64,000 nucleotides of DNA from Paramagnetospirillum marisnigri (GTDB taxonomy: Bacteria; Pseudomonadota; Alphaproteobacteria; Rhodospirillales; Magnetospirillaceae): contig NZ_LWQT01000042.1 of NCBI RefSeq assembly GCF_001650715.1, positions 1 to 64,000 on the forward strand. The letters are read 5' to 3'. The notes under the pieces are model-generated. The model saw nothing but the letters and a program-made list of their open reading frames with translations. It was not told where the DNA came from and searched no databases. Made by a program: the position numbers and the translations under genes. This document shows, piece by piece, positions 507 through 47,456 of the stretch (its first letter is position 1; every line of letters begins with the position of its first letter).

Positions 507-2686
507 GTCATCCTCCAGCGCCGCAGCAGCAGCGAGTTGGACACCACCGACACCGAGGACATGGCCATGGCGGCGCCCGCGATCACCGGGGTGAGCAGGC
601 CGAAGGCGGCTGCGGGAATGGCGATGACGTTGTAGCCGAAAGCCCAGAACAGGTTCTGCCGGATCTTGGCGGTGGTGGCGTGGGAGATGGACAGGGCCTC
701 GGCCAGCAGCGACAGGTCGCCGCGCATCAGGGTGATCCCCGCCGCCTGCATGGCGACGTCGGAACCGGTGCCCATGGCGATGCCGATATCCGCCGCCGCC
801 AAGGCGGGCGCGTCATTGACGCCGTCGCCCACCATGGCCACCACCCGGCCGCCGGATTTCAACTTGGCCACCTCGGCGGTCTTGTCCTCGGGCAGCACCT
901 CGGCCACCACCCGGTCGACGCCTACCGCCTCGGCCACCACCTGGGCGGCGCGGGCGTTGTCGCCGGTCAGCATCACCGTCTCCACCCCCATGGCCTTCAA
1001 GGCGGCGACCGCCCCGGCGGCGGAGGGCTTGACCGGATCGGCCACGGCGATGAAGCCCAGGGCACGCGGCGGCTCGGCCACCCACATCAGGGTACGGCCC
1101 AGCCTTTCCTGTTCCGCCGCCGCGTCGGTGAAGGCCGACAGGTCCAGCCCCTGCTCGGCCATCAGGCGGCTACTGCCCAGCAGCAGCGAGTGGCTCTCCA
1201 CCACGGCGCGGAGGCCCCGCCCGGGCAGGGCGGCGAAATCACTGACTGGGCTCAGGGACTCCGGCGGCACCACCGCCAGCACGGCGCGGGCCAGGGGATG
1301 CTCGCTGCCGGCTTGCGCCGAGGCGGCGAGGCGCAGGAAATCGGGCTGTCCCCCATCCACCACATGCACCACCGCCGGACGGCCCTCGGTCAGGGTGCCG
1401 GTCTTGTCGAACACCACCACCCGGGTGTGATGGGCACGCTCCAGCGCCTCGGCGTCCTTGATCAGGATGCCGCGCCGGGCGGCCAGCCCGGTTCCCACCA
1501 TGATGCCAGTGGGAGTGGCCAGCCCCAGGGCGCAGGGGCAGGCGATCACCAGCACCGAGACGGCGGCGACGAAGGCGGTGGCGGGATCACCGGCCAGCAG
1601 CCACCAGCCCAGGAAGGACAGGACGGCGATGACCACCACCACCGGCACGAAGATGGCCGAGACCTTATCCACCAGATGCTGGACCGGCGCCTTGGCCGCC
1701 TGGGCGCCCTGGACCATGCGGATGATGCGGTTGATGGTGGAGTCCGCCCCCACCCTTGTGGCGGCCAGGCGCAGTAATCCGTCGCCATTGACGGCGCCCG
1801 CCACCACGACATCACCGGGACCCTTGGGCACCGGCAGGCTTTCGCCGGTGATCAGGCTTTCGTCCATCTGACTTTCACCGCTCAGCACGCTGCCGTCCAC
1901 CGGCGCCGCCTCGCCCGGACGCAGCACCACCACCTCGCCCATCGCCACCAATGCTGCGGGAACCTCCAGGATCAGGCCGTCGCGCTCCACCCGCGCCACA
2001 TTGGGCCGCAGCCGCATCAGGGCGCGGATGGCTCCAGCGGCCGAGCGCTTGGCCCGGGTCTCCAGCAGCTTGCCCAGCAGCACCAGGGTGATGACCACGG
2101 CGGCACCCTCGAAATAGAGGTTGTGGTGATGGGCGTCACCCACCGCCACATGCCAGGCCGACAGGCCGAAGGCCGCGCTGGTGCCCAGCACCACCAGCAC
2201 GTCCATATTGCCCATGCCGCCCCGAAGCGAGGTCCAGGCCCCCTTGTAGAAGCGGGCGCCGATGACGAATTGCACCGGAGCGGCCAACGCCAACTGCAAC
2301 CAGCCGGGAATCATGACGGGGATGCCGGAAAGATCGAGGATCATCTGCCCCACCAGCGGCAGGGTCAGCAGCGCCGAAATACCCAGCGCCACGAGATGGT
2401 GGCGGGCCTCGCGGGCCTGCTCGGCCTCGGCGCGGTCCAGATCCTCCTCGCCGGACTGGGTAAGGTCGGCCTGGAACCCGGCCTTGACGATGGCGGCCAC
2501 CAGTTGCTCGGGCCGCGCCAGGGCGGGGTCGAAGCGGATATCGGCCCGCTCCGCCGCCAGGCTGACCAGGGCGCGCTCGACGCCCTCCACCTTGCCCAGC
2601 ACCCGTTCCAGCCGGGTCGAGCAGGCGGCGCAGGTCATGCCCTTGACCGGCAGGGACAGACTGGCGGGCGAAGCCTGATGCGACAC
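503..2686 (-). CDS. copA: Cu(I)-exporting P1B-type ATPase
   Basis: This is an inner-membrane copper efflux ATPase. It has one N-terminal heavy-metal-associated domain (Cys19-x-x-Cys22 in GMTCAAC), membrane helices with the CPC metal-transit motif near residue 380 (ACPCALG), the phosphorylated Asp427 in DKTGT, and the GDGVNDAPAL hinge near the C terminus. The usual length is about 730-800 residues; this one has 727. I start at the GTG at 2686 because GGAGG lies eight bases before it. An upstream in-frame GTG at 2707 would fall only about four bases after the predicted transcription start and has no ribosome site. The gene is co-transcribed with cueR. Confidence 0.95.
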   Translation of the reverse strand: MSHQASPASLSLPVKGMTCAACSTRLERVLGKVEGVERALVSLAAERADIRFDPALARPEQLVAAIVKAGFQADLTQSGEEDLDRAEAEQAREARHHLVALGISALLTLPLVGQMILDLSGIPVMIPGWLQLALAAPVQFVIGARFYKGAWTSLRGGMGNMDVLVVLGTSAAFGLSAWHVAVGDAHHHNLYFEGAAVVITLVLLGKLLETRAKRSAAGAIRALMRLRPNVARVERDGLILEVPAALVAMGEVVVLRPGEAAPVDGSVLSGESQMDESLITGESLPVPKGPGDVVVAGAVNGDGLLRLAATRVGADSTINRIIRMVQGAQAAKAPVQHLVDKVSAIFVPVVVVIAVLSFLGWWLLAGDPATAFVAAVSVLVIACPCALGLATPTGIMVGTGLAARRGILIKDAEALERAHHTRVVVFDKTGTLTEGRPAVVHVVDGGQPDFLRLAASAQAGSEHPLARAVLAVVPPESLSPVSDFAALPGRGLRAVVESHSLLLGSSRLMAEQGLDLSAFTDAAAEQERLGRTLMWVAEPPRALGFIAVADPVKPSAAGAVAALKAMGVETVMLTGDNARAAQVVAEAVGVDRVVAEVLPEDKTAEVAKLKSGGRVVAMVGDGVNDAPALAAADIGIAMGTGSDVAMQAAGITLMRGDLSLLAEALSISHATTAKIRQNLFWAFGYNVIAIPAAAFGLLTPVIAGAAMAMSSVSVVSNSLLLRRWRMT

Positions 2687-36308: not shown

Positions 36309-37757
36309 ATGAGTGACGATTTCGAGCTTTTCGGCGATGAACCCGCGACCCCGGCGGCGCCAGCACCCGCTTCTACCGGCGGGGGAGACCTGTTCTTCGA
36401 CGATGATCCCGGCCCGGCAGTCGACGCCGTCCCCACTCTCAGCATGACCGAGCGGGTCGCCCAAAATCTGAAGCTGTTTTGCGTCGACAACACCGTCAAC
36501 ACGACCATCCGCGAGGCCTCGACCCAGGTGGTCGCCAGCATGGACGCGGTGGTGGCCGAGGCATTCGCCTGGGTGCAGCAATTTCCTCCCTTTGGCGAGA
36601 AACTGACCGATGATGCTCGCTCCACCCTGTCCGGCGTGCTGATCGAGCATTGGCGCAACCTTTATCGCGGCGAGTTCACCGCCGACTACAACGCCACCGC
36701 CCAACAGCTTGGCTTCATGCTGGCCTATATGGACCTGGGCGCCTCGTGGTACCAGGCCATGGCGGCAGCCGGATCGACCAAGGCGCTCTCCATCATTTTC
36801 AAGGGCAAGCGCGGATCGGAATCGGCGGCGACCGCCCTGCAACGGGTGGTGATGCTGGACCTCTCGGTGGTGACCCACGACTATTTCGCCGCCGCCACCC
36901 AGAACCGGGCCAAGGTCGCCCAGGACCTGGCCAATGCTTTCGAGAAGAGCATCAAGCTGGTGGTGGATGAAGTGGGCGCCATGGCCGTGGGGCTTAAAAG
37001 CCATTCCGACGAGATGCTGCGTCGCCTGTCCCATATGGACTTCGAGACGGTGAACATGGCCGCCGCCGCCGAGGAGGCCTCCTACAGCGTCGACAATATT
37101 TCCAATAATACCAACGAGCTGGCCACTTCCATCGCCCATATTCGCGATAACGTGGTCCGCACGTCCGAGGCCGCCGAGCAGGCCGCCGAGGCCGCCCGCG
37201 CCACCGACGCCGCCATGCGCCAGATGCTGGATGTGGCCAGCCGCATCGGCAAGATCGGCGAAACCATCGACACCATCGCGCGCCAGACCCGCATGCTGGC
37301 GCTGAACGCCACCATCGAGGCGGCCCGCGCCGGAGCCGCCGGCCGCGGCTTCGCCGTGGTGGCCCAGGAAATCAAGAACCTGTCGGAGCAGACCAGCCGC
37401 GCCACCAAGGAAATCGCCCATTCCGTCGCCGAGGCGGTGCAGGCGACCAATGAAGCGGTGCAGACCATCAACCGCACCGTGGATGCCGTGGCGGGTATCA
37501 ATCAGGTGGCTACCGAGGTCCGCCATTCGGTCGAGGCCCAGACCGGGGCGACGGCCACCATCGCGGGCCATGTGTCCGAGGCGGCCTCGGGTGCCAAGGC
37601 CGTGACCTCCTCGGTCAACAGCGCCATCGAGGCGCTGGGCGTGTCCAGCAGCGCCGCCAGCGAGCTGAACCGTTCCGCCGACGCCCTGTCCATCAAGGCC
37701 GCCATCATGCGGACCGAGGTAGACCAGTATCTCGACCGCCTCCACCATATGGGCTAA
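36309..37757 (+). CDS. Soluble chemoreceptor with degenerate globin-coupled-sensor (protoglobin-like) domain
   Basis: The 482-residue cytoplasmic receptor has no membrane segment. After an Asp/Pro-rich tail (1-45), residues 46-200 fit the HemAT-type protoglobin pattern: [14 protein letters not shown], then a helix ending [12 protein letters not shown] (137-148). Counting back nine residues from the conserved Trp147, the proximal heme His of HemAT is replaced by Leu138. Residues 220-480 form the signalling coiled coil with the tip [41 protein letters not shown]. Heme binding is therefore doubtful, and it may sense something else with the same fold. The domain call rests on alignment by eye. 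Confidence 0.82.
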
Positions 37758-37788: not shown

Positions 37789-38484
37789 ATGACCGAATCG
37801 GTGCAGAAGCGACGTGAAATGCTGGCGAGCACACCGCTGTTCTCCGCCATCCCCGCCGCCTTGCTCGACGAATTGGCGGTAAGGGCCAAGCCAGTCAAGG
37901 TCGATTCCCGCGAGATCCTGTTCTCCAAGGGAGACCCCGGCGATCGGCTGTATCTGGTCGCCAAGGGCCTGATCCGCATCGGCGTGCTGTCGGTCGAAGG
38001 CCGTGAGGTCACCTATGGCATGATCAAGCCGGGCGAGTTGTTCGGCGAGATCGCGGTGCTCGACGGCGGCGCGCGCTCGGCCGATGCCACCGCCATGGAG
38101 GCCAGCGAACTGCTGGCCCTGGAACGCAAGGACGTCAACGGCTTCCTGCAGCGCCATCCCATTCAGGCCCTGCACCTGATCAAGGTGCTGTGCGACCGGG
38201 TGCGTCGCGCCGACGATCTGCTGGAGGATGTGGTGTTCCTGTCGCTGCCGTCCCGGCTGGCCAAGCATCTGCTGATGCTGAAGTCCACCCTGTCCGGCGC
38301 CGAAGCCGCCAAGGGTCCCGCCACCATCCGCCTGTCGCAGCAGGAAGTCGCCGACCATTTGGGCATCAGCCGCGAAAGCGTCAACAAAGTGCTGTCCAAA
38401 TGGGAACAGGCCGGGGTGGTCACCCTGGGGCGCGGTCAGATCACGCTCGACAAGCCCGACGCCCTGGAAGATTTCCTGTCCTGA
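37789..38484 (+). CDS. Crp/Fnr-family transcription regulator, CRP-like recognition helix
   Basis: The 231-residue regulator has a cyclic-nucleotide-binding beta-roll at about 18-125. The phosphate-binding cassette GEIAVLDGGARSADA has Glu87, Arg96 and Ser97 at the cAMP-contact positions of CRP. A dimer helix follows, then a winged helix at about 178-225. The recognition helix reads SRESVNK (194-200), matching the Arg-Glu-...-basic triad by which CRP reads TGTGA. There is no N-terminal Cys cluster, so it is not FNR. A perfect TGTGA-N6-TCACA site lies 30 bases after its stop. cAMP as ligand is inferred. Confidence 0.88.
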   Translation: MTESVQKRREMLASTPLFSAIPAALLDELAVRAKPVKVDSREILFSKGDPGDRLYLVAKGLIRIGVLSVEGREVTYGMIKPGELFGEIAVLDGGARSADATAMEASELLALERKDVNGFLQRHPIQALHLIKVLCDRVRRADDLLEDVVFLSLPSRLAKHLLMLKSTLSGAEAAKGPATIRLSQQEVADHLGISRESVNKVLSKWEQAGVVTLGRGQITLDKPDALEDFLS

Positions 38485-38513
38485 CCCCACTTTGGGTCAT
38501 ATGCCCCGACTTG

Positions 38514-38529
38514 TGTGAGCCCCTTCACA
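38514..38529 (+). promoter_or_regulatory. Perfect CRP-type binding site
   Basis: TGTGA-GCCCCT-TCACA is centred at 38521.5. A -10-like TATAGT at 38551-38556 predicts a start near 38563, which places the site at -41.5, the class II activation position. Confidence 0.65.
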
Positions 38530-38562
38530 TACGCCCCTTGCCGCTCCGCCTATAGTCGGTTC

Positions 38563-38697
38563 CGTCACCGTATTCCAAGATCGGTCCCTCCTCCGAACGA
38601 ACGCCGATGAGGACTGACGACGGGCCCTGGGGTGTTATTTGGGGCACTACCTATGGGCAAAAGCCCCCGGCGCCGTGCATGCGACGGGGGCTTTTCT
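38563..38697 (+). ncRNA. Candidate CRP-activated small RNA (about 135 nt)
   Basis: The unit runs from a predicted start near 38563 to the intrinsic terminator AAAAGCCCCCG (38659-38669) / CGGGGGCTTTT (38685-38695). No open frame with a ribosome site lies inside. The first third contains CCCTCCTCC (38586-38594), an anti-Shine-Dalgarno-like stretch seen in base-pairing sRNAs of alphaproteobacteria. The end point is firm; the start depends on the predicted promoter. The terminator also serves the convergent ratA transcript. Confidence 0.5.
38659..38697. terminator. Bidirectional intrinsic terminator
   Basis: An 11-bp stem AAAAGCCCCCG / CGGGGGCTTTT has T-runs on both strands (TTTTCTTTTATTT on plus, CTTTTGCCC on minus), placed between the candidate sRNA and the end of ratA. 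Confidence 0.9.
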
Positions 38698-38702
38698 TTT
38701 AT

Positions 38703-39158
38703 TTATACCGAATGCGACCGCCCATCGGGTCCGTAGAGCTGCCGCGCCCGCTTCTCGAAGGCCGAGACCATCAGCTTGACCGCCTCGTTGAACAGGGCGC
38801 CGATCACGGTTTGCAGCAGCTTCGACTTGAACTCGAAATCCACATAGAAGTCGATCTCGGTGCCGCCATCGGGCTGCCGCCGGAAAATCCAGTGGTTGTT
38901 GAGATGATGGAACGGCCCGTCGGTATAGGTCACATCCACCCGCTCGGGGCCGGACAGGGTGACCTTGGAGGTGAAGCGTTCCCGGATCATCTTGAAGCCG
39001 ATCACCAGATCGGCGAAGAACACTTGGCCATCACGGCGACGAATGCGTGACGCCACGCACCAGGGCAGGAAGTCGGGATACTTCTCCACATCGGCCACCA
39101 GGGCGAACAATTGCTCCGGCGTATAGGGAAGGATTCGCTGTTCCGCATGGGTCGGCAT
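38703..39158 (-). CDS. ratA: RatA/COQ10-type START-fold ubiquinone-binding protein
   Basis: The 151-residue single-domain helix-grip (SRPBCC) protein has the N terminus [34 protein letters not shown] and the closing helix FNEAVKLMVSAFEKRARQLYG, both typical of bacterial COQ10 homologues. They bind ubiquinone and support respiration; the RatA toxin name comes from E. coli and may not describe function here. The ATG shares one base with the lipA stop, a conserved lipA-ratA pairing in alphaproteobacteria. Confidence 0.88.
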   Translation of the reverse strand: MPTHAEQRILPYTPEQLFALVADVEKYPDFLPWCVASRIRRRDGQVFFADLVIGFKMIRERFTSKVTLSGPERVDVTYTDGPFHHLNNHWIFRRQPDGGTEIDFYVDFEFKSKLLQTVIGALFNEAVKLMVSAFEKRARQLYGPDGRSHSV

Positions 39159-47319: not shown

Positions 47320-47437
47320 GGAATCACAGGCTGATTCCCGGCGTCAATATGCACAAGCCGCAAGGATTCACTTTTCTGTTTCACGAGTCACGACTGTGGC
47401 AGAAATGACTCACAATTCCATGACTTCCGTGAAGCAC

Positions 47438-47456
47438 TTCACAATTCCATTGTGAA
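47438..47456. promoter_or_regulatory. Inverted repeat upstream of ftsB
   Basis: The perfect dyad TTCACAAT-TCC-ATTGTGAA lies 119 bases upstream of ftsB. The motif CACAATTCCAT within it also occurs once more as a direct copy at 47411-47421. Confidence 0.5.

Follow-up and report, generated by a model that had tools for sequence, protein, structure and literature searches.

A predicted small RNA gene with a CRP-type site beside a Crp-type regulator gene in Paramagnetospirillum marisnigri

Among described small RNAs, the enterobacterial CyaR (RyeE) offers the nearest parallel to the RNA considered here: it is a CRP-dependent small RNA that binds the Shine-Dalgarno region of ompX, according to the accessible text of PMC11795201, and it carries an at least partial anti-Shine-Dalgarno loop (PMC3927594). 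In the SmelA075/SmelA099 and RS0680a RNAs, which are likewise small, alphaproteobacterial and marked by CCUCCUC, the motif is thought to block ribosome sites (PMC3927594); each of these RNAs has two to four hairpins with CCUCCUCCC in the loop, and several copies occur per genome. The four sibling RNAs SisA-D of Caulobacter, compared here by their description only, have in common a 10-mer with an anti-Shine-Dalgarno signature, and the words 'Crp' and 'cAMP' are absent from the main text of the paper describing them.

We analysed a 64,000-nt stretch of the P. marisnigri genome (contig NZ_LWQT01000042.1, positions 1 to 64,000, forward strand; hereafter the window), in which an initial annotation had proposed an unannotated, CRP-activated small RNA next to a gene for a Crp-type regulator. 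The predicted RNA would resemble CyaR in its anti-Shine-Dalgarno-like stretch and in a presumed dependence on CRP, but it belongs to another class of bacteria, has another structure and has a seed extended by GAACGAAC. Kinship with CyaR by descent was not indicated by Rfam, as no family reached its gathering score anywhere in the window and CyaR was not among the nine weak matches at 38480-38720, all of which fell far below their cut-offs (sX11, 16.2 vs 70 bits). Unlike the SmelA075-type RNAs, with their repeated hairpins and looped motif, the window RNA has a single motif, placed in an internal-loop region, one strong match per genome and a CRP-type site ahead of it. The features of the locus are as follows.

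37789..38484, + strand: CRP-like regulator of 231 aa, presumed activator (Pfam cNMP_binding and HTH_Crp_2)
38514..38529, + strand: CRP-type binding site TGTGAGCCCCTTCACA, recognised by sequence and perfect in 15/15 strong homologues
38551..38556, + strand: -10 element TATAGT, with TAnnnT 21 or 22 nt past the site in 15/15
38563..38697, + strand: predicted small RNA of ~135 nt (covariance matches of at least 40 bits in 15 genomes, identity above that of crp four-fold sites, covariation)
38586..38603, + strand: presumed seed, CCCTCCTCC (anti-Shine-Dalgarno-like, 38586-38594) followed by GAACGAACG; conserved
38624..38658, + strand: second hairpin with a TTTGGGG loop (in 14 sequences 98.8% of cells pair, and two base pairs change on both sides)
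38659..38700, + strand: intrinsic terminator hairpin and T run, by folding (93.9% of cells paired in 14 sequences)
38703..39158, - strand: convergent Polyketide_cyc/RatA-like gene, the usual downstream neighbour (downstream in 12/14 genus loci)

The CRP-type site, its promoter and the adjacent regulator

The perfect TGTGA-N6-TCACA site named in the initial annotation is present at 38514-38529 and is the only one in the window, for which base composition predicts about 0.019 such sites (1.4 per genome); the whole genome contains seven, and a reversed control pattern none. Twenty-one nucleotides separate the end of the site from TATAGT, in agreement with the claim that the site is centred 41.5 bases ahead of the start deduced from that element: transcription is predicted to begin near 38563, which puts the site centre at -41.5. 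In E. coli CRP this is the position of class II activation. The same layout, TGTGA-N6-TCACA near -41.5 of a -10 promoter, was found in all 15 homologues, with a gap of 21 nt in nine and 22 nt in six (gaps were read at the loci given by the pattern search described below, which returned the same 15 unit-bearing genomes). All 14 genus sequences agree at each of the ten half-site bases, while they agree at only one of the six central positions and at 2 of the 21 spacer bases between site and -10 element. A scanner for -35/-10 hexamer promoters called no sigma-70 promoter between 37000 and 40500, as expected for a promoter of this type, which has no good -35 element; class II sites are described as lying close to the -35 element in the available portion of PMC10127613. 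Elsewhere in the window, a CRP-type site with one mismatch (CGTGAAGCACTTCACA) lies at 47428-47443, and in another part of the same genome (locus L003) a perfect CRP-type site at 1501-1516 lies upstream of a gene for a di-haem cytochrome c peroxidase (1774-2784, CCP_MauG).

The regulator was said at the outset to have the CRP-type recognition triad. Its Crp-type helix-turn-helix is confirmed, whereas the triad reads R-E-K (helix R-E-S-V-N-K) and not R-E-R. The recognition helix SRESVNK is identical in the 14/14 genus orthologues from unit-bearing genomes, and the best relatives of solved structure, 3d0s and 3i54, are Crp/Fnr-family proteins with RETVNK where the regulator has RESVNK; we take both to be M. 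tuberculosis CRP. In the accessible parts of the respective papers, the main Crp cluster is assigned an R-E-R triad with the motif RE(T/M)VGR (PMC10127613), the consensus site of M. tuberculosis CRP is given as close to that of E. coli (PMC4005916), and GlxR of Corynebacterium, a Crp-family protein, is reported to bind TGTGANNTANNTCACA (PMC4254451). The alphaproteobacterial cNMP receptor Clr of S. meliloti is reported, again in the available text of PMC10127613, to have a different site, HGTYHCNNNNGRWACA, so class membership by itself does not fix the site. We infer that it is the adjoining CRP-like protein, and not a paralogue, that binds the site at 38514-38529. Six matches to class III cyclases and a single Hfq occur in the genome, which makes both a cyclic-nucleotide signal and an RNA chaperone plausible. 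Directly upstream of the crp-like gene, the window encodes a protein of the globin-coupled sensor type (36309-37757), in which a protoglobin domain is joined to an MCP signalling domain.

Conservation and structure of the predicted RNA

A DNA search of 60 genomes (the genome of origin included) found the stretch in 13, every one of the same genus; the query contained the site, and six of the 12 relatives matched without the site region. The covariance model was built from these 13 sequences and begins near the predicted start, downstream of the site. A covariance search in related genomes had been named beforehand as a check, and it yielded 15 strong matches: among 55 genomes of the family, scores of at least 40 bits were obtained in 14 of the 17 genus genomes and in G017, which belongs to another genus and, at 40.8 bits and without GAACGAA, is the sole strong match outside the genus. 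The same 15 were recovered among 317 genomes of the order at E 1e-5, together with G179 at 31.8 bits, and in 296 of the 317 neither the model nor the pattern finds the unit. Matches in G005, G033, G065, G070 and G073 were set aside, as they scored 24-29 bits only and had neither a perfect site nor CCTCCTC nearby, and so were seven extra matches in the counted genomes, five being the opposite strand of the unit and two lying elsewhere (G017:C34 and G012:C14) with no perfect site.

Mean pairwise identity among the 14 genus sequences was 0.905 in the core (38586-38657) and 0.82 over the whole RNA, as against 0.67 at crp four-fold sites, 0.50 in the spacer and 0.44 in the 40 bases upstream; the core exceeded the crp four-fold identity in 91/91 pairs and the whole RNA in 90/91. 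The consensus structure consists of a 5' domain with CCCTCCTC and GAACGAAC, the second hairpin and the terminator, with 96.5% of cells paired over the 14 sequences. Two-sided changes were found at five base pairs, a number matched by 3 of 500 shuffles (slid versions gave 1 to 3); the sequences being close, this covariation is modest and relatedness alone can beat such shuffles, so that it lends the predicted fold modest support. Folded singly, the window RNA was mildly better than its shuffles (z -1.8), and four other sequences gave values from -1.5 to -3.5.

The 5' part contains, at 38586-38594, the anti-Shine-Dalgarno-like stretch that the initial annotation had noted there (CCCTCCTCC). Its CCTCCTC is present in 15/15 homologues and sits in an internal-loop region of the consensus, with a predicted mean unpaired probability of 0.24-0.58 in the 14 genus sequences (0.24 in G001) and of 0.72 in G017. 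GAACGAA is mostly unpaired in the predicted ensembles (0.84-0.90 in the 13/14 genus sequences having it). Folding also placed at 38659-38695 a hairpin of the terminator type with CTTTTATT after it, which accords with the strong intrinsic terminator proposed about 135 nt on; a simple scanner did not call the terminator from 38659 onward, which is visible by folding. This terminator (38659..38700) may also serve the convergent gene. The earlier statement that the region holds no credible open frame likewise held, in that none of the reading frames of the RNA has a stop conserved ahead of the terminator in the 14 sequences. The locus thus combines, at the level of sequence, what characterizes a gene for a trans-acting small RNA: a promoter, an intrinsic terminator, no conserved frame and a conserved structure.

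Gene neighbourhood and competing readings

A gap of 218 bases separates the crp-like gene (37789-38484, +) from the convergent gene (38703-39158, -), and in 12/14 genus loci these two genes flank the unit. At the two other loci, G009 has crp with the convergent gene not found, and G006 has neither, its intact unit lying ~14 kb from crp between SLOG/Lysine_decarbox-type and phosphofructokinase genes. The distance from the crp stop to the start of the site is 6-29 nt in 13 of the 14 crp-adjacent loci (G017 included) and 124 nt in G010. In G003, G005 and G015 the convergent gene follows shortly after crp, with no site and no strong model match between them. With the 3' end of crp on one side of the site and the convergent gene on the other, as in 12/14 loci, only a transcript starting there could use it. 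Read-through from the regulator gene, which had been set beforehand as the finding that would speak against a small RNA gene, is unlikely given the distant position of the unit in G006 and the presence of crp without the unit in three species (G003, G005 and G015). Judged by its sequence and position, the unit is an autonomous gene and not crp read-through. The proposal of a CRP-activated small RNA gains support from site, geometry, body and terminator being kept together in 15/15 strong homologues, and we regard an unannotated small RNA gene with CRP-type class II activation as very probable. We infer from the sequence that it is transcribed, under the control of the adjacent regulator. In two further genera the crp-like gene is followed by a CRP-type site, perfect in one and near-perfect in the other, and this RNA is absent (L109, 11 nt past the stop of the crp-like ORF, and L102, 19 nt past).

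The same arrangement could be read differently: the stretch might be the 3' untranslated end or terminator of the crp mRNA, or be processed from it, with the site incidental. The unit does follow crp in 14/15 strong homologues (13/14 in the genus, plus G017), mostly 6-29 nt past the stop. This reading is nevertheless very improbable, as it would have to account for the G006 unit, which has both site and -10 element ~14 kb off crp and beside other genes, for the persistence of crp without the unit in three species, and for a perfect site kept in 15/15, for which no role in a 3' end is known. Still less credible is a small peptide encoded by the RNA. The frame in question, LGHxLWA, starts at TTG and lies within window positions 38624-38663 after a GAGG-type motif; it is kept in 14/14 sequences, 13 of which were flagged for a Shine-Dalgarno-like motif. 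Its stop, however, is not conserved, the frame runs for 10 to 200 codons and overruns the predicted RNA end in 13/14, it overlaps the conserved hairpin, in which the GAGG is paired (the second hairpin), and other parts of the RNA show gaps of one and two bases. The frame is most likely a by-product of the hairpin.

Two further alternatives accept the small RNA and differ in how it is run or what it does, and we consider each of them unlikely, though less so than the preceding two. The promoter might be run by another regulator of the CRP/FNR family, of which such genomes usually hold several, or the protein might repress instead of activating; the persistence of the G006 unit away from crp would suit another regulator, but -41.5 is the class II activation position and the half-sites match those bound by a related Crp-family protein. 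Alternatively, a CRP-driven RNA might not block ribosome sites at all and might serve, for example, as a sponge for RNA or protein through CCCTCCTC or the GGGG loop, a possibility that overlaps with the favoured explanation up to its last step. In its favour, CCTCCTC is predicted to be about half open and the GAACGAAC repeat far more open, the two pattern searches described below yielded no target, and RNA sponges are known in Caulobacter (PMC12559287); against it, several studied small RNAs need their anti-Shine-Dalgarno motifs to bind mRNA ribosome sites (PMC3927594).

Possible targets, similar promoter layouts and proposed function

Two pattern searches looked for longer conserved stretches near start codons that could pair with the RNA, and no target that they produced was convincing; all were set aside. 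The first pattern, CCTCC-type pairing just before ATG, occurred at 21 places across the 17 genus genomes searched (reversed control: 2); rplF, named from the protein reading and found in three genomes, was rejected, as it shows a single mismatch to the RNA and an ordinary, strong ribosome site. The second, TTCGTTC-GAGG, occurred at 32 places (reversed control: 2), 30 of which were read as loci. At least two of these (in G004 and G012) are antisense of the RNA itself, and a place recurring in five genomes lies, in the one locus whose ORFs were listed, on the strand opposite the end of an ORF. In a hexapeptide-repeat, gamma-carbonic-anhydrase-like gene (named from reading), found in six genomes, the stretch is probably inside the coding frame, because an in-frame ATG lies upstream.

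The promoter layout followed by the motif was also sought, with 12-30 nt allowed between the site and TAnnnT and 8-38 nt between TAnnnT and CCTCCTC. It was present in 20 of 317 genomes of the order (reversed control: 0/317), namely 14 of the genus, G017, G159, G161, G241, G293 and G294, and a slightly tighter pattern, run on an even sample of 385 genomes of the class, returned the window's own genome only. G293 and G294, of one genus in another family, have a perfect site, 21 nt to TAnTGT and an early CCTCCTCCCCC; they also share a closing stem, a terminator and a second CCTCCC, whereas scarcely any of their upstream flanks can be aligned, and their RNA body and terminator differ from those of the window RNA. 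As, by a rough estimate, about one such pattern event could arise by chance in the order, a pattern match alone is weak and conservation between G293 and G294 is the better evidence. It is conceivable, though we think it doubtful, that an anti-Shine-Dalgarno RNA driven by CRP recurs as a design within the order. In G293 and G294, either promoter and seed would have been retained while the body changed past recognition, or the design would have originated repeatedly, and with repeated origin the switch from cAMP to ribosome sites would be convergent with CyaR.

The G293/G294 candidate corresponds to L078 and L079 (around 1501-1700, reverse strand), and in G294 (L079) a gene for a cNMP_binding protein is convergent and a NapC/NirT cytochrome gene divergent. 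In G161 (L061, reverse strand from 1501), TATCTT follows a perfect CRP-type site at 22 nt, CCTCC occurs twice, and a strong stem resembling a terminator comes after the motif; this is a possible third case. The matches in G159 and G241 look like chance by eye, and a second match in G006 resembles a protein-gene leader. Pattern matches were also seen in Streptomyces and Chlorobiaceae.

In the mechanism that we favour, a CRP-like protein, most likely the product of the next-door gene, would bind TGTGA-N6-TCACA when loaded with cyclic nucleotide and, from -41.5/-42.5, would activate in class II fashion a promoter that has a -10 box and no good -35. An RNA of ~135 nt would be made, ending at its own terminator, and its 5' part would present CCCTCCTC and then GAACGAAC for pairing with the ribosome-binding sites of mRNAs. 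This would lower translation of the targets, probably with Hfq, whose part is presumed. That the RNA pairs with the ribosome sites of target mRNAs is a reasonable expectation, held with less confidence than the existence of the gene. The predicted RNA represents a new family, while the kind of regulator is already known.

Among the papers listed in the literature searches, none appears to describe this RNA. Magnetosome formation in M. gryphiswaldense is reported, in the available text of PMC4754748, to be under the control of crp. For the same species, the accessible part of the one transcription-start map found for a magnetospirillum mentions one Rfam-predicted small RNA, BjrC80 (PMC9549626); the data of that map were not taken as bearing on the present unit. 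Through a conserved RNA with a CRP-type site ahead of it, such a regulator would gain a direct post-transcriptional branch in this group of bacteria, and the RNA, which is compact and single-copy, would be an alphaproteobacterial counterpart of CyaR.
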